This document shows, one piece after another, positions 5,544-57,623 of a stretch of DNA of 64,000 nt (positions are counted from its first letter, which is position 1; the number at the start of each line of letters is the position of its first letter). Location of the stretch: positions 1 through 64,000 of IMG/VR virus record IMGVR_UViG_3300035698_017294; one strand, 5' to 3'. The position numbers were made by a program, and so were the translations under genes. Source of the DNA: a virus. The notes beneath the pieces were generated by a model. That model saw only the letters and a program-made list of their open reading frames with translations. It was not told where the DNA came from and did not search any database.

Positions 5544-6463
5544 TACGCCAATTAATCCCAGCTGGACTTCTATTCGGTACTGGCGCTGGCGTTGCTATAG
5601 GCAATCGACAGCTAGTGGACAAGTACAACAGGCGCTCTGCACCCAAGTCGTTCAAAGACTTGCGAAACCAGTATAAGGATACGAAGCCAGGGGACGTGAT
5701 ACTGATACGCGATTCGCACATGCGCGGACCGTCACACACGGCGCTGGTATCCAGTAAAGGTGTGGTATCAGAAGTGCTCGTACCATCACAACATAAAAGC
5801 GTAGCACGCAATGTCCCACTAGAGAAATTTTTAAGGGATAGATCAAGAAGCGGTGGGCGGTATAGTCAAGACGCTGCTGCTAAAATATCAGACGTATTCA
5901 GACCACAGGCAGTGGATGCAAGAAAGCTAAAGTCGTTGTCCAATGCTGCAATAGATAAGGCTAAAAGAGGCATGGTAAAATATGATCCTCTTGCTAACAT
6001 ATCGCACGGAACTGCGATAGTTGGCGACAAGGACATTAAGGCAACATGTGTATCTTTTACAGATGCACTACTACGTGAATCTGGAGCAAAGAGAAGAAAA
6101 AACAAAACTCCCGTACTTCCAAGATCCGCAGTAGTTGGCTTAGATAAGGTAACCAACCTGGATAGACGTGAATCGTACATAGCGCCGCTGAGTGCTATGA
6201 CAGCGGCTTCAGGTGCTATAGCGCTGGCTTCCAAAAGAATGAAGCTCGGCCTACCTCTACTAGCTGCGGGCATCGCTGGTAATGCTATACCCACTGCACG
6301 TGACTCAGATAACTACTTAGTAAGTGCAGCAACAAGGGGTGTTGGCAGCTCGTTACGTAAAGTATTCCGTGGCAAAAATAAAGAATACGATAACGCCATA
6401 GGCGCAGGACTTCTAGCACTTCCTACTTCTCTCGGCATCGCTAAACTACTGAAGCTGAGATAA
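5540..6463 (+). CDS. Permuted papain-like (YiiX/NlpC-type) cysteine hydrolase with membrane segments
   Basis: The product is 307 residues. GDVILIRD at about 51-58 and SHTALV with His66 precede a catalytic-type Cys170 in KATCVSFTDALL. The order His first, Cys later is that of permuted papain-fold amidases and peptidases (YiiX/DUF830-like), which cut amide bonds in peptides, lipids or peptidoglycan. An N-terminal hydrophobic helix and C-terminal hydrophobic stretches (about 213-250, 288-303) suggest membrane attachment. The gene overlaps its neighbours by 1-4 bases. Activity is inferred from motifs. Confidence 0.55.
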   Translation: MIRQLIPAGLLFGTGAGVAIGNRQLVDKYNRRSAPKSFKDLRNQYKDTKPGDVILIRDSHMRGPSHTALVSSKGVVSEVLVPSQHKSVARNVPLEKFLRDRSRSGGRYSQDAAAKISDVFRPQAVDARKLKSLSNAAIDKAKRGMVKYDPLANISHGTAIVGDKDIKATCVSFTDALLRESGAKRRKNKTPVLPRSAVVGLDKVTNLDRRESYIAPLSAMTAASGAIALASKRMKLGLPLLAAGIAGNAIPTARDSDNYLVSAATRGVGSSLRKVFRGKNKEYDNAIGAGLLALPTSLGIAKLLKLR

Positions 6464-9129
6464 TGAAAAAGAAAACGATCAAAATACGCAAATCGCAACT
6501 TGTAGAAGGAGCGTTCCATTTAAACGGCGCTCCTCTTTCGCTAAAGGACTACAAGCACATGCGCCCTATGTATGATATGGGTCGTAAGAAACTTGTGATG
6601 CAGTTTGGTCGACAGACTACCAAGTCGTCTACCATGGCTAATCTAATGTTAGCCAACAGTATGGTACATCCTGGATTTCACTCCATGTATGTAAGCCCAA
6701 CTGTAGATCAGACTAAGGTATTTTCTAATGACCGTCTTGGTCCTCTGATCATGAATTCGCCTTATGTAAAAAATAACTATCTAAGCAATAAGCTGGAACA
6801 GAATGTGTTCCGTAAAAAACTGCGCAACGAATCTACTATGTACTTACGTTACGCTCTTCTAAGTGCTGATAGGTTAAGAGGTTATTGCCTAACCAATTGT
6901 GATTATTATACTTATAGAGGATGGGTACCAGCAACAGATTTAAAAAAAGATGATCTGGTTTTAACTAAAAATGAAAAGACGGGAGAATTTGAGTTCCAAA
7001 AACCCACGGAAATAATAGAGCAGGACTATGATGGCCAGTTAGATATTTATACTGCCAAAGGTTTCCGCTGTGAGGTAACACCTGAACACAGAATGCACCT
7101 ATCTTTTGATGTAAGAGCTGATCATGCTTATGGTGATAAAACTTTACCCCTAGAATGGCAAACTGATTACAAATCTAAAGATTTATATAACCGCAATTTT
7201 AAATTAGGTTTAGGTGATATAAATCAGTGCTATTACAAAGGGAAGTCCCCGGAATTTTTTGAACTTCCTGAACTAAGAACTAATATAAGGGCAACCGGTA
7301 ATGCATATGTAGACGGCGGTATAAGGACTTACAAACCAATCAAACTTCCCATAAAACCGTTTATGCGGTGGATGGGGTGGTGGTTGTCCGAAGGATGGAC
7401 GGTATTGAATAATCCTACTATAGGTATTGCCCAATCTAAAGAGCACAACCCGAAGTATTGGAAAGAGATAGATGAATTATTTAACGAGCTGTTTCCGAAA
7501 CGCGCCAAGTATAATACTGGTATAGAAACATGGGTATTGAATAGTGAATATCGAACTCTTTACGAGTGGCTTAAACCTTTAGGTAAATCTGGCGATAAAT
7601 ATATACCCAGGGAGCTGCTTGAATATACTGAGTACTTACCAGACCTACTGGATGCACTTTACAAGGGAGATGGGGACAATTGCAGGACATATAAAAAGAG
7701 TGATAGATACAAAGATTACCTTAGATTAAATACCAAATCGAAAGAACTTGCAAATACAGTACAAGAGGCATGGTTGCGTATTGGTAAGTTGGCATCTATA
7801 AGACACCGAGATCGTAAATACGGTCGTATTTATACTGTAGAATTAAAATCTAAAAATTATTTTAATTTTTATTTAAACAGGGCATCTTGTTCTGGACAAG
7901 TAACACACGAGCATTATAAAGGTAAAATTTATTGTGTTACAGTTCCAAATCATAATTTTGTAGCTCGCCATTCAAAAGAAAAAATGCCGTTTGTAACTGG
8001 CAATTCCAACGACATGATCCTATACGACGAGGCACAGGATTTATTACAGGACATTGTTCCTGTTGCCAATCAGTCTATGTCGCATTCAATGTTCAAATGG
8101 CTAATGTTTGCGGGTACCCCAAAACGCACAATCGGTACTCTATCGTTTTACTGGAACCTATCCAGTAAGAATGAGTGGATGCCAAAATGTCCGGCATGTA
8201 ACAAGTATAATTATCTCGATGAAAAGAACATAGGCAAAGAAGGTTTGATATGTCGGTTCTGCGGACACATGCTAGACCCAAACAATGGCTTATGGGTAAG
8301 CACTGGTCCGAAGAATGCTGAGTACGAAGGCTTCCGTGTATCACAGCTACAGTTCTTTAATGCCCCGTGGGTTGACTGGAAAAATGATATTATCATACCT
8401 CACGAACAGTATGGTATCACAAAATTCTATAACGAGGTTCTAGGTATTGCGCACGATGAAGGCGTGGTACCAATTACAGAGGCAGAGATCCGAGCGTGCT
8501 GTACTGGCGGCCCCATGACGGATAAGCCAACCAGAGTTGACCAAGGCCACAAACATGTCATAGGGCTTGACTACGGTCCAGTGAACTCAAATAAGTCATA
8601 TACCCTTCTATCTGTGTTATGCAAAAAGCCTGGACCGGCCAAGGTGATACAGGTAAAGTATTTGAAGAAATATGAGGGTAAAGAAGCAGACTTCTCGTTT
8701 ATCCATGATGATGTGCCAGTGAAGTTTAATAGATGGAACGCGTACGTAATAGGCAGCGATTACGGGTTAGGTGAAGCTTCCAATTCTGAGCTGCGTGCCA
8801 AATTAGGGGAAGATAAGGTTATTGCATACCAGCACACTGGAACACAAAAAGACCGCGTGCGCTGGAACAAGCAGATGCGTGCTTATACATTATCCCGTAA
8901 TACAACACTTGGGCAGCTATTTGCTAGGATAAAGAAAAGGAAGATCATATTCCCACGATGGGAAGATTTTGAACCGTTTGCGCGTGACATTTTGGCCATC
9001 ATGATAGACTATGATGAAGAGAAGGGCACCATGTCATACATCAACAGTGAACCAGACGATGCTATGCATTCTATATTATACGGCGGCATGGCATTGGAAT
9101 TACTGGAGGGCATGACAGATGAATACTAG
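6463..9129 (+). CDS. terL: Terminase large subunit, interrupted by an intein
   Basis: The DNA-packaging motor. It has an N-terminal ATPase and a C-terminal RNase H-like nuclease that pump and cut concatemeric DNA at the portal. The 888-residue precursor has a Walker A-like GRQTTKSS at 49-56 and Walker B MILYDEA at 518-524. A Cys4 zinc knuckle (CPAC...CRFC) and nuclease acidic residues in IGLDYG, IGSDYG and EPDDAMH follow. Residues 142-514 are an intein; removing them joins SADRLRGY to SNDMILYDEA, the usual terminase order. The mature protein would be 515 residues. It shares one base with the gene before it. Confidence 0.95.
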   Translation: MKKKTIKIRKSQLVEGAFHLNGAPLSLKDYKHMRPMYDMGRKKLVMQFGRQTTKSSTMANLMLANSMVHPGFHSMYVSPTVDQTKVFSNDRLGPLIMNSPYVKNNYLSNKLEQNVFRKKLRNESTMYLRYALLSADRLRGYCLTNCDYYTYRGWVPATDLKKDDLVLTKNEKTGEFEFQKPTEIIEQDYDGQLDIYTAKGFRCEVTPEHRMHLSFDVRADHAYGDKTLPLEWQTDYKSKDLYNRNFKLGLGDINQCYYKGKSPEFFELPELRTNIRATGNAYVDGGIRTYKPIKLPIKPFMRWMGWWLSEGWTVLNNPTIGIAQSKEHNPKYWKEIDELFNELFPKRAKYNTGIETWVLNSEYRTLYEWLKPLGKSGDKYIPRELLEYTEYLPDLLDALYKGDGDNCRTYKKSDRYKDYLRLNTKSKELANTVQEAWLRIGKLASIRHRDRKYGRIYTVELKSKNYFNFYLNRASCSGQVTHEHYKGKIYCVTVPNHNFVARHSKEKMPFVTGNSNDMILYDEAQDLLQDIVPVANQSMSHSMFKWLMFAGTPKRTIGTLSFYWNLSSKNEWMPKCPACNKYNYLDEKNIGKEGLICRFCGHMLDPNNGLWVSTGPKNAEYEGFRVSQLQFFNAPWVDWKNDIIIPHEQYGITKFYNEVLGIAHDEGVVPITEAEIRACCTGGPMTDKPTRVDQGHKHVIGLDYGPVNSNKSYTLLSVLCKKPGPAKVIQVKYLKKYEGKEADFSFIHDDVPVKFNRWNAYVIGSDYGLGEASNSELRAKLGEDKVIAYQHTGTQKDRVRWNKQMRAYTLSRNTTLGQLFARIKKRKIIFPRWEDFEPFARDILAIMIDYDEEKGTMSYINSEPDDAMHSILYGGMALELLEGMTDEY
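6886..8004 (+). mobile_element. Intein in terminase, with LAGLIDADG homing endonuclease
   Basis: A self-splicing protein insert of 373 residues, from Cys142 to Asn514 of the terminase ORF. Block A begins CLTNCDYYTYRGW and block B is VTPEHRM (T-x-x-H). Two LAGLIDADG-type helices are MGWWLSEGW and LLDALYKGDGD, and block F is YCVTVPNHNF. The C-terminal junction is TGN followed by Ser, so the usual penultimate His is a Gly. It splits the ATPase just before Walker B. Confidence 0.93.
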
Positions 9130-9693: not shown

Positions 9694-10431
9694 ATGTTAA
9701 CACAAGAAGAATTCGCAGAATATGGACGGCAAGCTGCTCGGGCTCATATGGATAGTGATATACCATTGACGGATTCAGTAATTAAGATCGCTGAGGAATT
9801 CTCTCTCAATCGACATGAAATAGATCGGCTTGTTGAAGAAGCCAATACTAGCACATATATGGAAATGTTCAGTAAGCAGGCCGATAAATATATCGAGTTC
9901 GAAGTTGCTGAAGCTGCAAAGGTTGCTGAAGCGATTGCGCCAAAAATGGCATTCTCCAAAGTAGCTGCGTTTTGTGAAGACTATGAATCCCCTCCTGACC
10001 AGTACGATCTAGGTATTGAACTAACTGATGTATTTGGCAACGAAGAAGCAGGCCCAGACGAAGCTCTAGAAAAGGAAGCTTCCGCCATTGCATTAGAAAA
10101 GGTATCTATAGAAAAGCGAGCTGCTACAGAAGAGCAGATGCGCGAGCTGGCATATAATTTCGATGATAGGTCTGACCAATTCATCAACTTTGTAAAAAGT
10201 GCAGCGGCTGCAGGAGTGTCACCAGATTCTATGAAGGTGTCGATCGAAACACACACTGGCGAAAATGCCGTACTGGATTCCCTTTTTAATAAGGCTGCAG
10301 GAGGCATTAAGCACCCAGAGGATTGCTTGAAGAAGATCGCCAAATTAGATGATACGACTGGCATAGTATTACTAGCTAATGAGCTAATAAAGACTGCCGA
10401 AAAATATGTAACACTAAAAGGGCAGGTATAA
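9694..10431 (+). CDS. Prohead internal or scaffold-like protein rich in K-x-A motifs
   Basis: The product is 245 residues, acidic and helical. It carries about ten copies of a hydrophobic-x-Lys-x-Ala pattern, including VIKIAEE, FSKQAD, FSKVAAF, LEKEASA, FVKSAAA, LKKIAKL and LIKTAEK. An AAGGA ribosome site precedes the ATG. It ends by sharing a base with the next start and lies just before the prohead protease. A scaffold or core role is inferred from position and composition. The repeated motif is discussed in the findings. Confidence 0.65.
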   Translation: MLTQEEFAEYGRQAARAHMDSDIPLTDSVIKIAEEFSLNRHEIDRLVEEANTSTYMEMFSKQADKYIEFEVAEAAKVAEAIAPKMAFSKVAAFCEDYESPPDQYDLGIELTDVFGNEEAGPDEALEKEASAIALEKVSIEKRAATEEQMRELAYNFDDRSDQFINFVKSAAAAGVSPDSMKVSIETHTGENAVLDSLFNKAAGGIKHPEDCLKKIAKLDDTTGIVLLANELIKTAEKYVTLKGQV

Positions 10432-11105
10432 TGACTGAGCAATTTGTAAGACTATATAAGCAAGGTAAATTACCTGCTAGCACACTTATTAAAATGGCCG
10501 CTCTTAAAGAAGAGATAGAGAAGAAAGCCGGATGGAAAGGATTTGGCCAAATTGGCAAGTTCCTTGGGTACGGTAGTGCAAAAGCACGTGAAGGCTCAGC
10601 GGAATTGGGCCAACTCGGCCCTGTTAATTCGCTAGGCGGCGGCGCTAAGGCACTTGGTGGGCTAATGCTTATATCCGCATTAGCGGGAGGCCTAATGTCA
10701 GCTGGCCAAACTGGTATCGATAAACTAGATAAAAATCTATTCGATGAAAAAAGAATGACTGGCGCATTAGATGCTATGGTAGAGAAGTTCCCAGAGATGG
10801 GATCCAAAGAAAATAAGGAATTGGTGCACAGCTATTTCAAATCATTGTGGCATTTTAGTCCTCACATAGCTAACGATCCCATGGCGGCACGCGCGTATAT
10901 AAAGCATGCTCTAACGTTACATGAAGTAGGCGGACCTACTCACTTGACGTATAAGGATCTCATTGAAGCCCAGAAAAATAGAGGCCAGACAGAACAGGCA
11001 CTACCTGTTCGCAGCGCTATGAGTGGATCACTTAATGCACTTAAAGCATTTGGTGGACCTCCTGCAAATGATTACATGCTGAACCCAGCAATCGGTAAGC
11101 TTTAA
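10431..11105 (+). CDS. Head-module protein with Gly-rich hydrophobic centre
   Basis: The product is 224 residues. The N-terminal helix has LIKMAAL and IEKKAGW, the K-x-A pattern of its neighbours. A Gly/Ala hydrophobic stretch (ALGGLMLISALAGGLMS, about 72-90) follows, then a soluble helical domain with several His. It sits between the scaffold-like gene and the protease and overlaps the former by 1 base. No family is recognised. Confidence 0.6.
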   Translation: MTEQFVRLYKQGKLPASTLIKMAALKEEIEKKAGWKGFGQIGKFLGYGSAKAREGSAELGQLGPVNSLGGGAKALGGLMLISALAGGLMSAGQTGIDKLDKNLFDEKRMTGALDAMVEKFPEMGSKENKELVHSYFKSLWHFSPHIANDPMAARAYIKHALTLHEVGGPTHLTYKDLIEAQKNRGQTEQALPVRSAMSGSLNALKAFGGPPANDYMLNPAIGKL

Positions 11106-11109
11106 ATAA

Positions 11110-13923
11110 ATGCTAAAACTTGTAGAATATAAAGCCGAAGATGATTTTGGTGTGCAAATAGAACTTATCGAGCCAGGTGGGCCGATGGTTAAAACTGCAG
11201 AAGCATCAGACGAACTTCAAGAGGCTATAGCGCTGATAAAGCCAAACGCAGCAAAGCTGTACATCTTGGTAAATGCTATGGGCGCTGGTGAGTATTACGG
11301 GTCTAATCGAAATGGTGACTACTTCCCTGAAAAGGTATTACAGCAGTATCACAAAACGTTTGAGACCCTGGCACGAGTATATAAGCACCATGTTAATAAA
11401 GATCCAATGCGGTCTTACGGTCGACCTGTATTTAGTCACTACAACAATAAGATGCATCGCGTCGAGCTGATCTTAGAGATAGACAAGGGAAAAGATGCCA
11501 AGATCGAGCAGCAGGTACGTGAAGGAACGATAAAAGTATCAATGGGTGCAAAAGTTCCGTTTGATATATGTCTTGATGTTAATACTTTAGTCAACACAAC
11601 TATTTTAAAGAATATTGAACCGGGGGATTTTGTATTTACCCATGAAGGTAGATCTAAGGAAGTAGTTGCTACATCAACGCGTATTGTAGATTCCTATATA
11701 GAAGTTTTACCTTTTGGTGATTACTTATCTCTAAACTCTACCGAAGAACATCCATTTCAAATTGCTAACTACAAGCAATTCAAGGAAGGCAAAATAACAA
11801 GGCTGAAGGCTTTAAAAACTGATTACCCGATTTTAGACTGGAAAGAGGCCAAAGACTTAAATATTGGTGATTATCTAGTATTTAGAAAAACAGCTAAACA
11901 TGTGTCTACCCTAGGTATTAATTTTGCTAGAATTTTGGGTTACTACTTAGCGGAAGGTTGGCTAATAAAGCAAAGATCCGGTAAGAAAAAAGATGGCCCA
12001 ATGAAAACAATGGGAGTATCTTTTTCTTTTAATATAAATGAACATGACTATATTGATGAATTAGCAGACCTTCTTTCAGAATATGGAACACCAAAAATAT
12101 ATAATGCCCCAGAAAAGCATGAGTGCCGTATAAGTGTTTATTCAAAAGACTTAGTCGACAAGTTATTAAAATATGGTGGTGAGTACCCAGGTACTAAATT
12201 TATTAATTCAGAACTTTATAAAGAATCAGAAGATTTTATTCTGGAACTTTTAGGGACTTTAATAAATGGCGACGGTAGCCAAGATCATTCTTCACAGCAA
12301 GGGGTAATAAGATATAGCACTATATCCGAGTATCTGGGAAGAGGTATTCGTCGACTATGTCTTGAGGCTGGTATAACAGCTAGTATAAATAGACGCGAAA
12401 CGAAAACTACGTATGGCGATTCTACGGTATATACTGTATATATTCCAGCTAGCGCTAGTAAGATTCTTTCAAGCTATTCAGTAAAAGTTAAATCTTATGA
12501 TAAAGGAACTTCTTCTAGGCTATTTAATTTTGATAATCATGTATTAATTCCTATAAAGAAGATATGTAATCACGACGATTACCTTGAAGTTAAAAATATT
12601 CAGGTAGAGGATGACGAATCCTATCAAGCGCAAGATTATGTTTCACATAATTGCTCAATATGTGGACACAAGGCGCGTCGCATGGTAGACTATTGCGAGC
12701 ATCTTAAACGTCCGAATATCAATAGGCTTAGACCTGATGGTCGTCGTGCGTATGCGATTAACACGCAGCCAAAGTTCTTCGATATATCCGTGGTGACAAT
12801 ACCAGCAGATCGTACTGCTTTTATGATGAGAAAGCTAGCGGAGTTCGAAGGCAACAGTGAGTTCGTAAAGCTGTCATCTGAGATGTATCACGAGGTATTA
12901 AAGAAAGCTGATGTTAAGGAAGCGGAAATAGAGAAGCAGATAGACGGCGAGACTATGTCTACTGCGGATACAGATCCTAAGGGGCTTATATATAATACTC
13001 AGGACGAGTTACCAAAAGCTGATCTTATAAATCTGGTAGACAAGCACGGTGCAGAAGCAATACTACGTGCACTTGCCGAAATGAATATCATGCCAAAGCC
13101 TGTGGACTTCCAGAGAATAATGCTACGCTCAGGACACATGGACGATCTAATGGATCACATGGATAGTCATAGGCGAGTTTTCCCGATCTTCTCAGATACG
13201 GAACCATTGCCGTTCAAATGTAATCATAGTGAATTGCCAGATGAGCTGCTACATGAAATGTCGACATACGTTCCCAGACGGTCATTATCAAAACCATTGA
13301 TAATTGTCCGCGTAATGCGCAAGTTTGCAGAGAATAAAAACATCATGTCGGATGATCCATATACGCAGTATTCAAAAAACGAATTGGCGCAGATGGAGAA
13401 CGGCTCACATGTTAAGACTCCAATTTACAAGAATCCAGCTATACCTCTAACCGCCCTCGGCGGCATGTATCTTGGATACTCAAGGTATTTTAAAAAGGCT
13501 GGATCCAGATCTGCTGTGGCGAACAAGTTTATCAAGAAGCCGTGGATGTACCCGCTATTGGCTTTTGGTATAGGAGCAGGAACTGTTGGTGCGCAGAAGG
13601 TTAAAGAGTTCAGCTTATCAAATATTAGCCAAATGCAGAAACAAGCAGGCGCAGCTTCTAACATAGCGGCAGGAATGCTAGTATCTTTACCAGCTACGTA
13701 TTACACTTCATATAACGTAGGTGCGAAGAAGAGATATGGTATACCAGTCGGAAACATAGAAAATACAGTAGCTAAGCATCCATTTATTACTGGGCTAGCG
13801 TCCAGCGTGGCTGCTGGAGCGGCTATTAAAAGACTAACAAAAGTTGCTTCGGCAGAATATTTTTCTACAATGTCAAACAAGGTTATAGACGAATTGTATG
13901 AAAAACTTGTACTTAGCACTTGA
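11110..13923 (+). CDS. Prohead protease-type protein with intein and long C-terminal extension
   Basis: The precursor is 937 residues. Residues 1-153 and 515-600 together resemble the head maturation protease of large myoviruses: AMGAGEYYGSNRNGDYFP, a conserved KVSMGAKVPFDI, a CSICGHKAR...YCEHL zinc-type motif and FFDISVVTIPADRTAF. Such enzymes cut scaffold and capsid proteins in the prohead. Residues 154-514 are an intein. Residues after about 600 form a long extension with K-x-A motifs and three hydrophobic Gly/Ala stretches near the end, unusual for a protease and perhaps an internal protein cleaved off. The stop overlaps the 13920 promoter. Confidence 0.8.
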   Translation: MLKLVEYKAEDDFGVQIELIEPGGPMVKTAEASDELQEAIALIKPNAAKLYILVNAMGAGEYYGSNRNGDYFPEKVLQQYHKTFETLARVYKHHVNKDPMRSYGRPVFSHYNNKMHRVELILEIDKGKDAKIEQQVREGTIKVSMGAKVPFDICLDVNTLVNTTILKNIEPGDFVFTHEGRSKEVVATSTRIVDSYIEVLPFGDYLSLNSTEEHPFQIANYKQFKEGKITRLKALKTDYPILDWKEAKDLNIGDYLVFRKTAKHVSTLGINFARILGYYLAEGWLIKQRSGKKKDGPMKTMGVSFSFNINEHDYIDELADLLSEYGTPKIYNAPEKHECRISVYSKDLVDKLLKYGGEYPGTKFINSELYKESEDFILELLGTLINGDGSQDHSSQQGVIRYSTISEYLGRGIRRLCLEAGITASINRRETKTTYGDSTVYTVYIPASASKILSSYSVKVKSYDKGTSSRLFNFDNHVLIPIKKICNHDDYLEVKNIQVEDDESYQAQDYVSHNCSICGHKARRMVDYCEHLKRPNINRLRPDGRRAYAINTQPKFFDISVVTIPADRTAFMMRKLAEFEGNSEFVKLSSEMYHEVLKKADVKEAEIEKQIDGETMSTADTDPKGLIYNTQDELPKADLINLVDKHGAEAILRALAEMNIMPKPVDFQRIMLRSGHMDDLMDHMDSHRRVFPIFSDTEPLPFKCNHSELPDELLHEMSTYVPRRSLSKPLIIVRVMRKFAENKNIMSDDPYTQYSKNELAQMENGSHVKTPIYKNPAIPLTALGGMYLGYSRYFKKAGSRSAVANKFIKKPWMYPLLAFGIGAGTVGAQKVKEFSLSNISQMQKQAGAASNIAAGMLVSLPATYYTSYNVGAKKRYGIPVGNIENTVAKHPFITGLASSVAAGAAIKRLTKVASAEYFSTMSNKVIDELYEKLVLST
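11569..12651 (+). mobile_element. Intein in prohead protease, with LAGLIDADG homing endonuclease
   Basis: A protein insert of 361 residues, Cys154 to Asn514 of the protease ORF. Block A is CLDVNTLVNTTILKNIEPGD and block B is STEEHPFQ. The two endonuclease helices are ILGYYLAEGW and LLGTLINGDGS. The C-terminal end is the standard VSHN followed by Cys. Splicing joins VPFDI to CSICGHK, restoring the zinc-type motif. It lacks close similarity by eye to the terminase intein outside the common blocks. Confidence 0.93.
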
Positions 13924-13947
13924 CAAAATAGATATGCATATTATACT
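13920..13947 (+). promoter_or_regulatory. Strong sigma-70-type promoter of the capsid operon, TATACT class
   Basis: Perfect TTGACA at 13920-13925, a 16-base spacer and TATACT at 13942-13947. The -35 overlaps the stop codon of the protease gene. Downstream lie a palindrome and a consensus AGGAGGT ribosome site, as expected for abundant head proteins. Confidence 0.85.
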
Positions 13948-13961
13948 AGTAACGTTAAATT

Positions 13962-13978
13962 AAATAAACTGTTTATTT
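13962..13978 (+). repeat. AT palindrome before the ribosome site (hairpin or operator)
   Basis: AAATAAAC, one T, then GTTTATTT: a perfect 8-bp inverted repeat in the 5' leader, ending 4 bases before the AGGAGG site. A similar element occurs at 15555-15571. It could be an mRNA hairpin or a repressor site. Confidence 0.6.
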
Positions 13979-13996
13979 AGCAGGAGGTTTTAAAAA

Positions 13997-14551
13997 ATGG
14001 CTTTAAATTTACAAGAAGTGATTGACAACCTAGAGAGTCAGACTGATCCAGCGGACAACTTTTTCGCAAAATTGGCATCAGATGAAAATCAAGAAGTTGT
14101 TGATGAGGTAACTTCGGACATTGAAGCTTCTGAATATACAGATGAAGAGCAAGAAAAAATCGCCGAAGCTTTTGAGCTAGGGCAATTAGCTGCACAATCT
14201 GTATCCGATGATCTAGAAAAAATAGCTGTTGGTAAAACTGGTATGACACCAGAAACTGGTGCTCCAATGAACCCAGCAATAGCTATGGCAACTAATAATG
14301 CCGATGTTAATCCTCAAGTCTTGGCGCAAGTTATGGCTTTGATTAACCAAGCAGCTAGCGGAATTGGCCAAACTGGCTCACTTGCACACGGCTCAGTCGG
14401 TGGACAAGGTGCAGCGGCGGCTCAAGCTCCCGCAGTTACAGACGCGTATCCCATTGCATCAGATGCAATCGGAACTCCAGGTAGAGTTAAAACCGCGGCT
14501 GATTACGTAGTTGGTGGATTGTACGGGCTCTATTTCGGGGGTGAGGAATAA
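13997..14551 (+). CDS. Acidic assembly (scaffold-like) protein
   Basis: The product is 184 residues. The N-terminal half is acidic and helical with FFAKLASD, QEKIAEA and LEKIAVG; the C-terminal half is Ala/Gly/Gln-rich and ends LYFGGEE. RVKTAAD lies near the end. It starts behind an ideal ribosome site (AGGAGG) and is first in the capsid operon. Order and composition fit a scaffold or core protein processed by the upstream protease; no family is recognised with certainty. Confidence 0.65.
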   Translation: MALNLQEVIDNLESQTDPADNFFAKLASDENQEVVDEVTSDIEASEYTDEEQEKIAEAFELGQLAAQSVSDDLEKIAVGKTGMTPETGAPMNPAIAMATNNADVNPQVLAQVMALINQAASGIGQTGSLAHGSVGGQGAAAAQAPAVTDAYPIASDAIGTPGRVKTAADYVVGGLYGLYFGGEE

Positions 14552-14841
14552 TGGCTGGATTACTTGAAATGTATGAACAAATGACAAAAGAAGCAGAAGA
14601 GACACAAGTCGATGTGCAGCTGGACGAAGAGCGTGTAGGTGTGATCGAGAAGTATGCTTCCTTTGCCGAAGATGTGTTGATTGATAATGGCGAAGATTAT
14701 ACAGAAGATGATGTCATCAAACTGGCTAGTGCGTTGATCGATCATGATCTCGAAGTAGAAGACCAGATGGACAAGGTAGCCGAGCTAGACGAAGCTGGCC
14801 GCATCATGGCACGTGCTTTTCTTGCAGAACTGCAAAACTAA
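14551..14841 (+). CDS. Small acidic assembly protein with K-x-A motifs
   Basis: The product is 96 residues, Glu/Asp-rich and probably all helix. It contains four copies of the shared pattern: MTKEAEE, IEKYASF, VIKLASA and MDKVAEL. The start overlaps the previous stop by one base. It appears related in composition to the proteins at 13997 and 14854, and the three may be divergent paralogues. It probably has a head-assembly role by position. Confidence 0.65.
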   Translation: MAGLLEMYEQMTKEAEETQVDVQLDEERVGVIEKYASFAEDVLIDNGEDYTEDDVIKLASALIDHDLEVEDQMDKVAELDEAGRIMARAFLAELQN

Positions 14842-14853
14842 GTCTGGAGAAAA

Positions 14854-15229
14854 AATGGCAAGTTTACTAGAAATATTAGCTGAATCTAACATAACGTTAG
14901 GTGACGACGAGAGCCAAGTTAAACTGGCTAGCGGTGAGCTGGATACTTCTGTGAACTTAGATAAGGACTCGATCGAAAAGCTGGCTGAAACGCTGGATGC
15001 TTTTGGCGAAGAGGATTCATTACTTGATGAGATGGCAAAAATTGCTGTGTTGCAAGACATGATCAACTTGGTTGAAGCTTCAGACGAACACAAAGCTATT
15101 TTGAAAGAAGCTGGACTGGCTTTACCGCCTTATGCCGAAACTGAACCAGATCGAAATCGTTTTGAATATTTGGCTGAGCGAATTGCTAATGGCGAACGGT
15201 TACTACCCGGAGGCACAGCAAATGACTAA
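14854..15229 (+). CDS. Small acidic assembly protein with K-x-A motifs
   Basis: The product is 124 residues from the ATG at 14854, chosen because CTGGAG lies 6 bases upstream. An earlier in-frame ATG at 14813 lies inside the previous gene and adds an atypical basic leader. Motifs are QVKLASG, IEKLAET, MAKIAVL and ILKEAGL. The N terminus MASLLEILAES resembles MAGLLEMYEQM of the preceding protein, supporting paralogy. Confidence 0.65.
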
Positions 15230-15551
15230 ACACGAATTATGCAAACAAGCGGCAGCGACGATAAGGGCTCAATTCGAACGTATTGAACAACTAGAGAACG
15301 AAAGATTAGTGCTTGACAAAGCTATCGATCTTACCTCTGATTTAGTAGAACACGAAAAGATTTCGTCAGTCAAAGCTTTTGATAAACTAGCTGAATTACG
15401 TGGCCAAACTTTAGAGCAGCTGGTTACGCTGGACAAGGCAATCGAGCTTACTAAGGAGTCAGGCTTTAATCTAGAATTAGGTAGATTATCTGACGAGCAC
15501 AGCAGTGCTAATGGTGACCCTCTAACCAGTTGGTTACTAGACGACAATTAA
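15222..15551 (+). CDS. Small helical assembly protein
   Basis: The product is 109 residues from the ATG at 15222, which has GGAGG 9 bases upstream and overlaps the previous stop. Highly charged coiled-coil sequence with an internal repeat: LVLDKAIDLTSD and LVTLDKAIELTKE. K-x-A copies are LCKQAAA and FDKLAEL. It is the last of four small assembly proteins before the decoration and capsid genes. Confidence 0.65.
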   Translation: MTKHELCKQAAATIRAQFERIEQLENERLVLDKAIDLTSDLVEHEKISSVKAFDKLAELRGQTLEQLVTLDKAIELTKESGFNLELGRLSDEHSSANGDPLTSWLLDDN

Positions 15552-15554
15552 ACT

Positions 15555-15571
15555 AAATAATGATATTATTT
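15555..15571 (+). repeat. AT palindrome before the ribosome site
   Basis: AAATAAT, GAT loop, ATTATTT: a perfect 7-bp inverted repeat directly before GGAGG of the decoration-like gene. It resembles the element at 13962-13978 in sequence and position. Confidence 0.55.
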
Positions 15572-15583
15572 GGAGGTTAAATA

Positions 15584-16045
15584 ATGTTAAAGATAAGAAC
15601 GAATCTAGACATGATAGATCGTTTTGATGCTACGGTTCGATCTGGCGCAGGTAATGATTTACTGGCTAGTGGTTACCAAGGTGTGTGGGCTGTTCCGTCA
15701 GCAAATGGGTTCGATTTACCCACGTCTGTTGGAACCCATCCTGCCTACATGGTATGGACCGAAGGTAATTACAATCCCACTACAGGTGTCGAGTCAATTG
15801 GCTTTACACCCGATGCGACACAGACAACTAAGCTAACTTTCTTGGCCGGTAAATTCCGTATTTTAACAAATATGTTTGAAGATACCCCAACGCCTACAGT
15901 AGGATCTCCTATGTGCGTTAACGCAACGACAGGTAAGTTAATTCAGATAACCGATGATGGTAACGCGTTTGCTAGTGGCGTGGTTGCACACGTCATGACT
16001 GCCGAAGACGCAACAACCGGTTATCTTGAAATTCAAACATTCTAA
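15584..16045 (+). CDS. Capsid decoration / head-stabilisation-like protein
   Basis: The product is 153 residues, beta-rich, with no Cys cluster or membrane segment. The middle and end read like phage head-decoration proteins (GSPMCVNATTGKLIQITDDG, ASGVVAHVMTAEDATTGY). It lies immediately before the major capsid gene, the usual place for a decoration protein, with its own strong GGAGG site. The assignment rests on position and overall character; it would bind the outer capsid surface. Confidence 0.6.
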   Translation: MLKIRTNLDMIDRFDATVRSGAGNDLLASGYQGVWAVPSANGFDLPTSVGTHPAYMVWTEGNYNPTTGVESIGFTPDATQTTKLTFLAGKFRILTNMFEDTPTPTVGSPMCVNATTGKLIQITDDGNAFASGVVAHVMTAEDATTGYLEIQTF

Positions 16046-16062
16046 CAGGAGGTACTAAGAAT

Positions 16063-16989
16063 ATGTCTTATGATGTTGATCCTAAAGCCCTGACAGAACT
16101 CTTCATTGAGAAGATGGGCACAGACATGGAGAAGACAGCAGCTGAGGCTGGTGCCTTCGTGCGTATGAGATTGCGCGAGCTTTCCTTCATGCGTAAAATC
16201 ATGAACCCTACGTACGTTACTGCGGCTGACTGCCAGCGTTCCGTGCTACATGACCAATTGGTCAAAATCGTTGATAAGGAGCCTGATTCAACTGCGTACA
16301 CTATGAACTTCCGTGGCAAAGCTAACGCTACCTACGTGAAGGGTGAACGCTATGAAATTTCTTTCTTCTTAGTGGGATCGGAAGATTTCCAGAAGACTGA
16401 GGAAGAGCTCCTAGCATACGAGATGCCTATTACAGATGTTATTGAAAAGAACTCTGTTAAAGACATTCAAAAAGTTGAAGATACTGTATTTATCCAAACC
16501 ATTTCTGGAATATGTGATGACAATTCTAAGAGTAGAAGCCTGGCAACAGGAATCTCTGGAATTACCAATCCTATTCCTCAGCTGGTTTTCCGTACCGGAT
16601 TCAATTTACTTGAATCCGTAAGTGGAAATGACCCATTGTATACTGACTTGATTCTTATGAACCAAGCTGATTACAATAAACTTATTGAGTGGAATAGTAC
16701 TCAGATCGGTGATCAAATCGCGACTGAGATTACTACTAATGGTTTCACTTACCCAACTCTGTTCGGTAAGAAAGTTATCACCACAATTAAGGGTGCATTG
16801 GTTCCTGAGAATACACTGTATTTCTTTGCACCAAAAGAGTACTTGGGTCACGCCTACATTCTAGGTGATACAAAGTTCTGGATCGAAAAGAGAAAGAATC
16901 TTGTGACTTGGGGTGCTTACGAGCATATCGGTGTAGGTATCGGTAACAACAACGGTGTTGCTAGAGTTACATACAGCGTTTTATCATAA
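16063..16989 (+). CDS. Major capsid protein, HK97 fold
   Basis: The product is 308 residues, the building block of the head shell. The N-terminal helical arm includes MEKTAAEAG at about 22-30, matching the K-x-A pattern and a plausible maturation cleavage site. The body has the capsid order: an E-loop-like region, a long spine region, then LYTDLILMNQADYNKL, YPTLFGKKVITT, NTLYFFAPKEYLG and a C-terminal strand. An AGGAGGT ribosome site precedes it and a terminator follows, as expected for the most abundant protein. Length is typical. Confidence 0.85.
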   Translation: MSYDVDPKALTELFIEKMGTDMEKTAAEAGAFVRMRLRELSFMRKIMNPTYVTAADCQRSVLHDQLVKIVDKEPDSTAYTMNFRGKANATYVKGERYEISFFLVGSEDFQKTEEELLAYEMPITDVIEKNSVKDIQKVEDTVFIQTISGICDDNSKSRSLATGISGITNPIPQLVFRTGFNLLESVSGNDPLYTDLILMNQADYNKLIEWNSTQIGDQIATEITTNGFTYPTLFGKKVITTIKGALVPENTLYFFAPKEYLGHAYILGDTKFWIEKRKNLVTWGAYEHIGVGIGNNNGVARVTYSVLS

Positions 16990-17330: not shown

Positions 17331-17420
17331 ATAGTGGTACTGTGGTTTTCATGGTTGCCTCCTTTCGGTTAGAGAGTGCTCGGAGTGAGCGCTCTCTTTC
17401 TATTTAAGAAAGAAAGTTTT

Positions 17421-17762
17421 ATGGAAGTTGTCGATCGTCCCTGGGGTTACTTCTTAGTTTTAGACGAGGATAAAGACTCCAAGACCAAAAAAATAGTTGT
17501 GCACCCCAACCAACGTTTAAGTTTACAGCGCCACTGTAAGCGAGACGAGCACTGGTTCATTACACACGGCTTAGCCGTGGTAACGATGAACGATGCTGCC
17601 CTTAACCTAAAGAAGGGCCAACAGGTAACCATTCCTAGGATGGTACGACATAGGGTGCATAACACAGGAACGGAAGACCTGGTCTTTATTGAGATACAGA
17701 CTGGTGATTACTTCGGGGAAGACGACATTGAGAGATTTGAAGATGATTATGAAAGGGAATGA
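17421..17762 (+). CDS. Mannose-6-phosphate isomerase type II (cupin)
   Basis: The product is 113 residues from the ATG at 17421, chosen because the family starts at this point (RPWGYF). It matches the C-terminal isomerase domain of ManC/AlgA-type enzymes throughout: LSLQRHCKRDEHW, VTIPRMVRHRVHN, IEIQTGDYFGEDDIERFEDDY. The cupin His and Glu ligands (RH...EH, H) are present. Such domains interconvert fructose-6-P and mannose-6-P, which could feed GDP-mannose to the sugar island at 44.7-47.7 kb. The GDP-mannose pyrophosphorylase half is absent here. Confidence 0.8.
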   Translation: MEVVDRPWGYFLVLDEDKDSKTKKIVVHPNQRLSLQRHCKRDEHWFITHGLAVVTMNDAALNLKKGQQVTIPRMVRHRVHNTGTEDLVFIEIQTGDYFGEDDIERFEDDYERE

Positions 17763-17764
17763 GA

Positions 17765-18148
17765 ATGGGTTATTCATACGGACCAATTGACTGGGATAGT
17801 GATGGAAGGGTTAATTGGAATCAAGCAGGTGAAGAGCACCCGCCACCATACGGCGTAAGGAACGAATGCAATAGAACTGAAAATGATGAGTTCTACTATT
17901 TCTGGATCCCGGCCCCAGGCGCCATTAAGGATAAAATAAAAATTACGGTTGCGGACAATACTATTACAGTTATAGCAAATATTGACTACCCGTGGGGTAC
18001 TAAGAGAACTATAGCAATGGACATTGATATTCCCACCAACGGTGACAGCGATAAGATCAATTCAATCATGCACAATGGCTTGCTGGAGATCAATATACAA
18101 AAGACTAAAGAACCAAGATCAGTGCCTATTGAGATTAAAGTAACTTAA
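17765..18148 (+). CDS. Small heat-shock protein, Hsp20/alpha-crystallin family
   Basis: The product is 127 residues. The start at 17765 is preferred to 17759 because GAAAGGGA lies at proper distance. The alpha-crystallin domain is visible: FWIPAPGAIKDKIKITVADN, ITVIANID, then NSIMHNGLLEINIQK, the conserved G-x-L signature. It ends with an I-x-I-like tail (PIEIKV). It overlaps the cupin stop and shares its promoter. Some phages encode such ATP-independent holdases, which may protect virion proteins during assembly; the client is unknown. Confidence 0.75.
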   Translation: MGYSYGPIDWDSDGRVNWNQAGEEHPPPYGVRNECNRTENDEFYYFWIPAPGAIKDKIKITVADNTITVIANIDYPWGTKRTIAMDIDIPTNGDSDKINSIMHNGLLEINIQKTKEPRSVPIEIKVT

Positions 18149-55556: not shown

Positions 55557-56299
55557 ATTTTAATCCAATCTAACGGTAGCAAATCTGATAAATCATAGTT
55601 ACACTTTTTAATACCAAGCCACAACTTAGGTGCTACTACCTGTTTATTTGGGTTCACTCCAAGCCATGCACTCCACCAACTAAAACTACTATTGGCAATT
55701 ATGTGATTATCGCATAATGACTGCACGGCCATATCCACATATTGATTATTACCTTCGATAAATATGGAACGACTGTCTGCTAAATTTTCTTTACACCAAT
55801 TTATATCGTCTGATGTTATTATAAAATTACTATCTGGGAATTTATCTTTTGCTTGAGTATAATACTCTGTGCTACAAATTGGAAAACTTTCTGGTTTTGT
55901 TAAGTAGTCGCCTCTACGTACATGAAGGCTTGTATTGATACCAGCGGGTAAAAGTTTTTTTGCTTTATTTAAGATAAATGGTCTAAAAGTAAAATCTTTT
56001 CGTATTACATCTTCTATAGCTTTAAAGTATTTCTCTGATTGGAAATAGCCATATAGATCGCAGTTATCTGGGCAGTTAAAGAGATCGGACCAGTAATGAA
56101 AATGAAGTTCTTGTACAATAGAAGCATCTGGCACTATCCCAGCTATAGCATCTAATAGAAAACATTTAAACAAATGGTGTCCGCTAAGCGGTAAGCACAT
56201 TTCATAATTATTCTTTAGTGCAACAGCTTTAAGTGCTGCGTACTGGAACATTTGGTTTCCTAAATGTCCGTACGAGCCTAATTTAGAAAAGGTAATCAT
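55553..56299 (-). CDS. Glycosyltransferase family 11 (alpha-1,2-fucosyltransferase type)
   Basis: The product is 248 residues. The GDP-binding HVRRGDY segment lies in LHVRRGDYLTKPE, and the conserved IIANSSFSWWSAWLG is intact; the N terminus GHLGNQMFQYAALKA is typical. The enzyme adds a GDP-activated 6-deoxy-L-galacto sugar to a glycan. With the ColD/ColC pair the donor may be GDP-colitose. It overlaps its neighbours. Confidence 0.88.
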   Translation of the reverse strand: MITFSKLGSYGHLGNQMFQYAALKAVALKNNYEMCLPLSGHHLFKCFLLDAIAGIVPDASIVQELHFHYWSDLFNCPDNCDLYGYFQSEKYFKAIEDVIRKDFTFRPFILNKAKKLLPAGINTSLHVRRGDYLTKPESFPICSTEYYTQAKDKFPDSNFIITSDDINWCKENLADSRSIFIEGNNQYVDMAVQSLCDNHIIANSSFSWWSAWLGVNPNKQVVAPKLWLGIKKCNYDLSDLLPLDWIKM

Positions 56300-56973
56300 T
56301 TAAAAATCTCCATTGCGCTTACTTCTTCCCCGATAAAGTTAACCGCTTTATCGTGGTATTGTGCTATAGCTTTGGCTCCAACATGCCCAATATGCTCTAC
56401 TATAGAGGGTAAGGTACAAATTAAATTACCTCCATATTTTTTAACATCTGTAGTTAAAGCCCAATCCCACTCTTCTCCTATTTTAAAAGGATGCTTCTCA
56501 AAATAGTCCATAGCGATTAATAAATTAGCTCCGCCTATTGATGTTTTAGTACAATAATGTCCATGATCGTCTATTAAATCATGCTGGTTAGTTCGTGTAT
56601 CAAAACCAGTAATAACTGGCTGTTGGGTTTCCTGGTATAATTTAACAAGAGCCGTTATCCAATCTTTTGAATACAGCATATCTGCGTCGGTAACTAAAAA
56701 GTATGGAACCTTTTCTACAAGCTTGCGTATTCTAATGTCTTGCGCTATGCGCATTACCTTGCACAATGGAATTCCTATATGCCTATGTACTTGATAGGTC
56801 CATTTATACTCTAAAGCTACACTTCGTAATTGCGCTTGTAAATTTTCGTTAGACCCGTCATCCATAATAATGACTTCGATATCTTCCGGGGTACTAGAAT
56901 TAAAGAGGCTAGTTAAACTACGCAATGTAATGTCATCACGGTTATAAGTGCTTATATATAATGGTATTTTCAT
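56296..56973 (-). CDS. Glycosyltransferase family 2
   Basis: The product is 225 residues. The GT-A nucleotide-binding start IPLYISTYNRDD and VIIMDDGSNEN, then a D-x-D motif in LVTDADMLYS, indicate a metal-dependent family 2 enzyme. It contains no membrane segments, so it is probably cytosolic. The sugar and acceptor are unknown. It overlaps its neighbours by 4 bases. Confidence 0.82.
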   Translation of the reverse strand: MKIPLYISTYNRDDITLRSLTSLFNSSTPEDIEVIIMDDGSNENLQAQLRSVALEYKWTYQVHRHIGIPLCKVMRIAQDIRIRKLVEKVPYFLVTDADMLYSKDWITALVKLYQETQQPVITGFDTRTNQHDLIDDHGHYCTKTSIGGANLLIAMDYFEKHPFKIGEEWDWALTTDVKKYGGNLICTLPSIVEHIGHVGAKAIAQYHDKAVNFIGEEVSAMEIFK

Positions 56974-57623
56974 TTATTAAAGGGCCTTTCGTATTTTTCA
57001 TGCCCGGGCATTCCTCCCCACTTTCTAATGTAATACGTTTGACTACGTTGAAAATAAACTTGCAGTTCAGGCGTTTTTTCTAATGTTTGGGAAACTAACT
57101 TAACTTCGGGTGATAACTCATCTACCAATAAGCACCATTTATCTGGAGCTCCAAGATTACATCGATACATAATATCATTGTCTTCATACCAAGCTGGCCA
57201 AATGATTTCGTCTGCATATTTTCCAGGTGCATATTCTAAGAATTCTGCTCCTTTTCGATTTAGCGCCCATGCAGCAAATCCGCTCGTAGCTCGCATAAAC
57301 CAGTACGGAGTGGTCTTTAGATAATTTTTAATTATCTCTATTTGGCCCTGCCCATATCTTATGTCATCATTTAGTATTAGTAAAAAGTCTATTTCTTTTT
57401 CTTTGAAGCTTCGGTTAATTGCACGATTCCAGCTTTTTGCGACCCCTAGATTTTTTGGTTGCGTGTCAATGAATACTTTTGGGTGATCTACGTGTATACT
57501 TTGATTTCCGTTATCCACTATATGTATATACTCAAAATGCTCAGACTGTGGTAATAGCGTATCCAAGGATTGTTCTAGTAAATCTTTCCTGTTCAGAGTA
57601 GGTATTGTAATTGCTAATTTCAC
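56970..57623 (-). CDS. Glycosyltransferase family 2-like
   Basis: The product is 217 residues. AITIPTLNRKDLLEQS opens it and LLILNDDIRYG holds the metal-binding Asp pair. The domain is short and overlaps the actin-like gene by 4 bases. It probably transfers one sugar in the same glycan. Confidence 0.75.
   Translation of the reverse strand: MKLAITIPTLNRKDLLEQSLDTLLPQSEHFEYIHIVDNGNQSIHVDHPKVFIDTQPKNLGVAKSWNRAINRSFKEKEIDFLLILNDDIRYGQGQIEIIKNYLKTTPYWFMRATSGFAAWALNRKGAEFLEYAPGKYADEIIWPAWYEDNDIMYRCNLGAPDKWCLLVDELSPEVKLVSQTLEKTPELQVYFQRSQTYYIRKWGGMPGHEKYERPFNK

Follow-up and report, generated by a model that had tools for sequence, protein, structure and literature searches.

The virus record IMGVR_UViG_3300035698_017294 is 106,197 bp long; its bases 1–64000 form the window, and the rest of the record served for comparison. 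Its head module carries a short protein motif, Psi-x-K-x-A (Psi being Ile, Leu, Val, Met or Phe where this position is restricted), which recurs in the prohead protease, in the N-terminal arm of the major capsid protein (MCP) and in a series of putative scaffold or core proteins. In our view the counts establish that this motif acts at the protein level as a functional signal inside the prohead. Judged from the sequences, Psi-x-K-x-A followed by Ser, Glu or Ala would be, with a probability of about 0.86, the consensus at which the herpesvirus-like prohead protease (11110–13923) cuts. The original prediction, which had proposed such a role for K-x-A, is thus supported by the site in the MCP arm, by sites flanking the catalytic domain of the protease, by many sites in the scaffold proteins and by depletion of the motif from the MCP body. 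It is further backed by the virtual exclusion of Pro from P1' and of Gly and Pro from P2 and by the failure of Arg to stand in for Lys, and the frequency check that had been named as its possible refutation came out in its favour.

Organization of the head module

The module follows the terminase gene (6463), which contains an intein. The proteins at 9694, 10431, 13997, 14551, 14855 and 15189 are probably scaffold or core proteins. The gene order is as follows (the arrow marks a predicted cut):

9694–10431, + strand: 245-residue putative core/scaffold protein with 11 K-x-A, homologue of gp220 of Salmonella phage Arash
10431–11105, + strand: 224-residue protein with N-terminal LIKMA↓A and IEKKA↓G (residues 19–33), homologue of Arash gp221
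11110–13923, + strand: prohead protease with a 30-residue N-terminal extension, an intein-split catalytic domain and a scaffold-like C-terminal extension
13997–14551, + strand: 184-residue putative scaffold/core protein with 4 K-x-A
14551–14841, + strand: 96-residue putative scaffold/core protein with sites 18–23 residues apart along its entire length
14855–15229, + strand: 124-residue putative scaffold/core protein with 4 K-x-A about 20 residues apart
15189–15551 (alternative start 15222), + strand: 120-residue putative core protein with 2 sites
15584–16045, + strand: 153-residue decoration-like protein, a motif-free internal negative control
16063–16989, + strand: MCP with HK97 fold (structure model and profile match)

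Frequency of the motif

K-x-A occurs 11 times in the 9694 protein (about ten had been predicted), 11 times in the protease, 4 times each in the proteins at 13997, 14551 and 14855, twice in the MCP and not at all in the 15584 protein. It was also foreseen in the proteins at 10431 and 15189/15222, where 3 and 2 copies were counted; none was counted in the 176-residue protein at 9119. Of the protease copies, two fall within the intein and a further one, KDA at 128, belongs to the catalytic part; of the two MCP copies, one is located in the N-terminal arm. The sequences MRKLAEF and YFKKAGS of the protease and MEKTAAEAG of the MCP arm are all present as originally quoted. The predicted number of four motifs each in the proteins at 13997, 14551 and 14854 is correct for K-x-A but not for the strict form with ILVMF (2 at 13997 and 3 at 14855), and the last of these proteins does bear the motif but starts with the Met at 14855.

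Expected counts were obtained from per-protein shuffles that keep the composition. The region 9694–16989 contains 30 [ILVMF]-x-K-x-A against 4.3 expected, i.e. about sevenfold the number given by composition, and the other 137 open reading frames (ORFs) of the 106-kb record contain 49 against 42.4. In an unbiased scan of 1600 residue pairs with spacings 1–4, K(+2)A ranks first in the head module (39 against 14.1, z 7.3; such z-scores are descriptive only, because the shuffle statistics count relatives as partly independent of each other, also in non-redundant sets). A residue of the ILVMF group stands two positions before Lys in 29 of these 39 K-x-A. The annotated ORFs among the others of this record with p<0.02 for the motif (83863, 88224 and 46778) encode a nucleotidyltransferase, a ribonucleotide reductase and an epimerase and were taken as chance.

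That acidic, Lys/Ala-rich helical proteins would give K-x-A by chance or by helix periodicity has next to no probability. The core proteins are indeed rich in Ala, Lys and Glu, but the shuffles preserve composition, and together with the pair scan and the control regions they rule out chance; substituted motifs and other spacings lack comparable enrichment, and the i/i+2/i+4 spacing, to which the strong enrichment is confined, is not a helix period, which rules out helix periodicity. The codons for the motif Lys and Ala differ among copies. The signal is therefore one of the protein level, and a DNA repeat as its source is ruled out.

The original prediction also regarded N-terminal tags as the same signal. 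This is true of the head module: in 8/8 of its motif-bearing proteins the first predicted cut falls after residue 15–33. It does not extend to the rest of the genome, as N-terminal motifs on proteins outside the module are not in excess (4 against 3.8 expected in this genome and 6 against 5.7 in Arash).

Sequence rules and probable position of the cut

The rules of the motif were counted in 336 non-redundant head ORFs, which contain Psi-x-K-x-A 901 times against 170 expected (5.3-fold). Exchange of Lys for any other residue leaves no comparable enrichment (Psi-x-R-x-A 78 against 93), and exchange of Ala leaves at most small effects (Psi-x-K-x-S 149 against 117, Gly 120 against 116, Pro 123 against 75). 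The residue following Ala is preferentially Ser (2.9-fold), Glu (2.8-fold) or Ala (1.6-fold) and almost never Pro (0.1-fold); the residue preceding Ala is hardly ever Gly (1 against 12) or Pro (3 against 8), and Glu is favoured before Lys. Altered spacings lose the signal except for weaker echoes of K-x-A itself. Alternation of P5, P3 and P1 along the chain is how a protease reads an extended substrate. In the scaffold families the conservation of the motif Lys is 0.47–0.59 vs 0.14–0.33 for other Lys residues. The Glu-type consensus is not strongly enriched in these proteins ([LI]xE 1.1–1.2-fold; [SA]xE 1.0-fold, 1033 against 1020 with the motifs masked), nor is the herpesvirus [VIL]-x-A-S as such (109 against 112).

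The cut is placed, probably correctly, after Ala, which assigns Ala to P1, Lys to P3 and the hydrophobic residue to P5. This placement follows from the P3-x-P1 format of the related proteases, from the P1 Ala of the assemblins and from the avoidance of Gly and Pro before the motif Ala and of Pro after it. The published consensus is L/I-x-E for T4 gp21 and S/A-x-E for the phiKZ protease (gp175), with the cut after Glu in both (PMC9026906). That of SPN3US gp245 is A-x-E, also cut after Glu and with a preference for Ser at P1' (PMC10052503), and in the herpesvirus assemblins the cut follows Ala (YLQA-T, VQA-S; PMC4498786). A small share of the probability given to cleavage belongs to the case that Psi-x-K-x-A is recognised and a different bond is broken, e.g. 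after Lys or one residue downstream; the cut position is inferred, and no other residue of the motif is as exclusive as Lys. Against this stand the format of the published consensuses, which puts Ala at P1, the cut of the assemblins and the near absence of Pro right after Ala and of Gly and Pro right before it.

Major capsid protein

The MCP carries a single site of the predicted cleavage in its arm:

16126–16140, + strand: MEKTA↓AEA, predicted MCP maturation site (predicted mature N-terminus AEAGAFVRMR, residue 27)

K-x-A is present in the arm of all 49 homologues listed, with the hydrophobic residue replaced in a few, and the Ala is located near residue 26 in most of them; in the alignment the site Lys and the site Ala are each retained in 35/36 sequences. 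The first 40 residues of the MCPs hold 27 motifs against 2.5 expected and the remainder 3 against 11. In the MCP body K-x-A itself is found 6 times against 23, and the reversed A-x-K 16 times against 23. The AlphaFold2 model of the MCP has the HK97 fold, and the sole match of the window MCP profile in the PDB is gp27 of Bacillus phage G (6WKK, E 1.5e-17).

Prohead protease

The protease is interrupted by an intein at residues ~154–515, which follows the candidate catalytic Ser (VSMG) and precedes the CxxC motif. LAGLIDADG inteins are found in both the terminase (6463–9129) and the prohead protease (11110–13923), and the proteases of several relatives (e.g. L018, L048, L057 and L007), 912–977 residues long, apparently have the same insertion. 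Among 28 diverse protease sequences Ser145 is invariant and His95 is at least 90% conserved; by analogy with the family these two are the candidate catalytic residues. A conserved CxxC...CxxH insertion (post-intein CSICGHKARRMVDYCEHLK), in which three Cys are invariant in the 28 sequences, is also present in phage G gp19 and is a candidate zinc knuckle. Such an insertion is not known from T4 gp21 or the assemblins.

The fold was examined with the AlphaFold2 model of a homologue (L002, 570 residues), compared with the PDB by VIA-align. Its catalytic domain is closest to T4 gp21 (5JBL: Z 10.2, 127 residues, root-mean-square deviation 2.9), followed by the herpesvirus proteases of varicella-zoster virus (1vzv, Z 9.6) and of pseudorabies virus and herpes simplex virus 2 (Z 8.0–9.2); that of human cytomegalovirus (HCMV) also matched, and unrelated entries reached Z ≤5.5. 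Plain Foldseek with the same model gave no match at E <0.001, and the sequence profile of the protease gave none against the PDB. Of the curated family models, Pfam Peptidase_S78 matched 4/28 members (best E 3.6e-4), and PHROG 18299 ('head maturation protease') matched the window protease at E 5e-6. The gene is grouped with those of the scaffold and MCP. By its modelled fold and its gene context, the protease belongs to the T4 gp21/assemblin superfamily, the group of herpesvirus-like prohead proteases that also includes HK97 S78.

The predicted sites of the protease are distributed on both sides of the catalytic domain:

11185–11199, + strand: MVKTA↓EAS, predicted N-terminal processing site, present in 32/36 aligned sequences
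12826–12840, + strand: MRKLA↓EFE, release-site-like, just after the catalytic domain, 31/37 aligned sequences
12895–12909, + strand: VLKKA↓DVK, extension site (motif match)
13315–13329, + strand: MRKFA↓ENK, extension site (motif match)
13486–13500, + strand: YFKKA↓GSR, extension site (motif match)
13633–13647, + strand: MQKQA↓GAA, extension site (motif match)
13834–13848, + strand: LTKVA↓SAE, maturation-site-like, 24 residues from the C-terminus (motif match)

In the intein-less numbering of the alignment the two flanking sites are at residues 28 and 214, and the last site is 18–29 residues from the C-terminus in most sequences. In their placement the post-catalytic and C-terminal sites would thus be release-site-like and maturation-site-like, resembling the assemblin R- and M-sites. 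In the L002 model residues 1–31 have a predicted local distance difference test score (pLDDT) below 50 and the catalytic domain a high one, and the N-terminal site ends at Ala31; self-cleavage of L002 would fall after residues 31 and 217. Over the protease family the N-terminal region holds 35 motifs against 1.7 expected, the extension 164 against 26 and the catalytic part, in the main clade, 2 against 4.8. As possible starts of a separate scaffold product, several internal ATG codons follow the release-site-like site, none of them with a clear Shine-Dalgarno sequence.

Putative scaffold and core proteins

The scaffold-like proteins carry a site about every 20 residues. The predicted cuts of the 9694 protein are after residues 33, 63, 78, 86, 91, 129, 143, 170, 202, 216 and 235, and cutting of the 14551 protein after every site Ala would yield peptides of 15, 21, 23, 18 and 19 residues; this protein and the peptide DSIEKLAETLDAF are candidate protease substrates. 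The enrichment is seen in each of the families (9694: 288 motifs against 32.6 expected; 13997: 190 against 24.3; 14551: 174 against 19.9; 15189: 70 against 7.0). Midway in the cluster, the decoration-like family 15584 lacks this enrichment (3 against 4.5); its window member has a weak similarity to gp26 of phage G (pairwise E 1e-4). In many relatives (L020, L033, L048, L058 and L059) M-x-K-x-(A/S) forms residues 1–5 of the 10431-family protein, and a hydrophobic stretch follows closely.

Downstream of the module, a 129-residue protein at 17759–18148 resembles by eye a small heat-shock (Hsp20) protein and adjoins a cupin-like protein at 17376.

Cleavage or docking

The same distribution could be expected if the core proteins, the protease and the MCP arm used the motif to bind a common partner (portal, core or coat) and were not cut there. 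The motif is confined to the expected prohead-interior proteins and is found near each N-terminus, like the capsid targeting sequences of T4 (PMC9026906), and many copies per protein would also fit a multivalent scaffold. Docking of this kind alone is nevertheless improbable in our estimate: the position downstream of Ala, just where the scissile bond would be, is under constraint (Ser, Glu or Ala, but not Pro), and neither the depletion of K-x-A from the MCP body nor the sites on either side of the protease catalytic domain are obviously expected from it. The two functions are not exclusive, since the targeting peptide of T4 itself ends in a protease site.

Distribution among relatives

The search with the MCP collected 76 IMG/VR loci, Salmonella phage Arash and Vibrio phages D69, D148 and D181. 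Upstream of the MCP the motif is 3–8 times more frequent than expected in relatives with enough of the head module, down to 28–30% MCP identity, so that the enrichment over shuffled proteins recurs in every relative with enough sequence; downstream of the MCP it is near expectation in most of them. A scan with the protease alignment found at least 550 IMG/VR relatives, from which 77 new loci were kept, some of them from contigs already included, and in all 77 the motif is enriched 3–9-fold around the protease.

The MCP of Arash is 34% identical to that of the window. In its complete genome the head genes contain 35 motifs against 5.7 expected and the remainder 67 against 66.5. Arash genes 220, 221, 222 and 226 are homologues of 9694, 10431, the protease and the MCP; no Arash homologues of the 13997–15189 proteins were found. 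The predicted cuts in Arash are after LVKEA (A29) in the MCP gp226 and after LTKQA and LEKVA in the protease gp222. The proteins at the scaffold position carry the motif in both phages, though they are non-homologous.

Three Arash (OQ632216) proteins outside the head cluster, gp242 (174466–175335), gp218 (142729–144576) and gp97 (55924–57243), have 8, 4 and 5 motifs, respectively, and are candidates for further prohead-interior proteins. The RNA polymerase beta subunit of Arash, gp206, starts with MPKSA.

It appears likely, at a somewhat lower level of confidence than for cleavage as such, that this lineage (at least 550 IMG/VR stretches, Arash, D69/D148/D181 and, for the protease, phage G) uses a consensus in which P3 has to be Lys and P1 is Ala, unlike the published Glu at P1, in a herpesvirus-like protease-scaffold fusion, with the motif marking non-homologous prohead-interior proteins.

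Comparison with known systems

With T4 gp21 the protease shares the catalytic fold according to the model, the location of its gene next to the scaffold and MCP genes, and, as proposed here, a short P3-x-P1 consensus with many scaffold sites, one maturation site in the MCP arm and sites within the protease (PMC9026906). L/I-x-E in T4 behaves similarly in the same test (gp22 16 against 5.9, gp21 7 against 2.5, gp68 5 against 2.0). In contrast to T4, the proposed consensus here is Psi-x-K-x-A instead of L/I-x-E, the window protease has a long scaffold-like C-terminal extension as well as the CxxC...CxxH insertion, and the predicted MCP propeptide has 26 residues vs 65 in T4. The phiKZ gp175 and SPN3US gp245 proteases are likewise gp21-like with a C-terminal propeptide containing several redundant sites (PMC10052503, PMC9026906), and SPN3US shares the preference for Ser at P1', but P1 would be Ala here and is Glu there. 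The pUL26 assemblin resembles the window protease in fold, in the order of a protease followed by a scaffold-like part and in the probable P1 Ala (PMC4498786), as well as in having a site right after the protease and another ~24 residues from the end; it differs in that Lys would be obligatory at P3 here and that the capsid protein itself bears a site. The homologous protease of Bacillus phage G, gp19, holds 7 motifs against 0.7 expected and has the same flanking sites, LVKTA↓A close to its N-terminus and LEKVA↓S immediately behind its catalytic domain. The consensus fits none of the published ones found; no K-x-A prohead consensus was encountered in the literature, open-licence papers being covered.

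By analogy with the T4 and assemblin systems the phage would work as they do, and the following order of events is inferred. The protease would be synthesised as a precursor, extended at its N-terminus and, by a scaffold-like part, at its C-terminus, and would join the prohead core with the proteins 9694, 10431, 13997, 14551, 14855 and 15189. On completion of the shell it would free itself by cuts after residues 30, 577 and 913 and then chop the core proteins into peptides of ~20 residues, which would exit the head. Removal of 26 residues from the MCP by the protease would permit expansion and DNA packaging.

Several observations weigh against this picture. The MCP of phage G, gp27, is without K-x-A and its deposited chain begins with Met1, so that it is probably not processed. 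The signature is faint or missing in the homologous proteases of mycobacteriophage I3, Rhodococcus phage Finch, Phrappuccino and Moorella phage MTATph1; the consensus is therefore a trait of the lineage and not of the fold, as expected if protease specificity drifts. In a distant clade (within L060–L077) motifs such as FEKFAR and LEKLAN lie inside the catalytic domain (18 against 3.3 expected). These may be buried, may be a structural coincidence or may act as internal self-inactivation sites, and internal sites have been reported for the proteases of HCMV and Kaposi's sarcoma-associated herpesvirus (PMC4498786). In the AlphaFold2 monomers the predicted MCP site is at the start of helix 22–40 and the post-catalytic site of the protease is in a predicted strand, so both would have to become accessible. 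The virion proteome table of Arash does not list where its peptides lie, and the coverage values in it do not lend themselves to a test of cleavage.

Significance

Few model prohead proteases have had their cleavage rules measured, and those of T4 and the giant phages, which are well studied, cut after Glu. Psi-x-K-x-A, if it is indeed the consensus, would add another, very clean rule, obtained purely from sequences and open to testing in a Salmonella phage in culture, and would show how protease specificity and dozens of substrate sites change jointly in evolution. With the motif it also becomes easy to find scaffold and internal proteins that would otherwise go unrecognised in a large group of uncultured phages.

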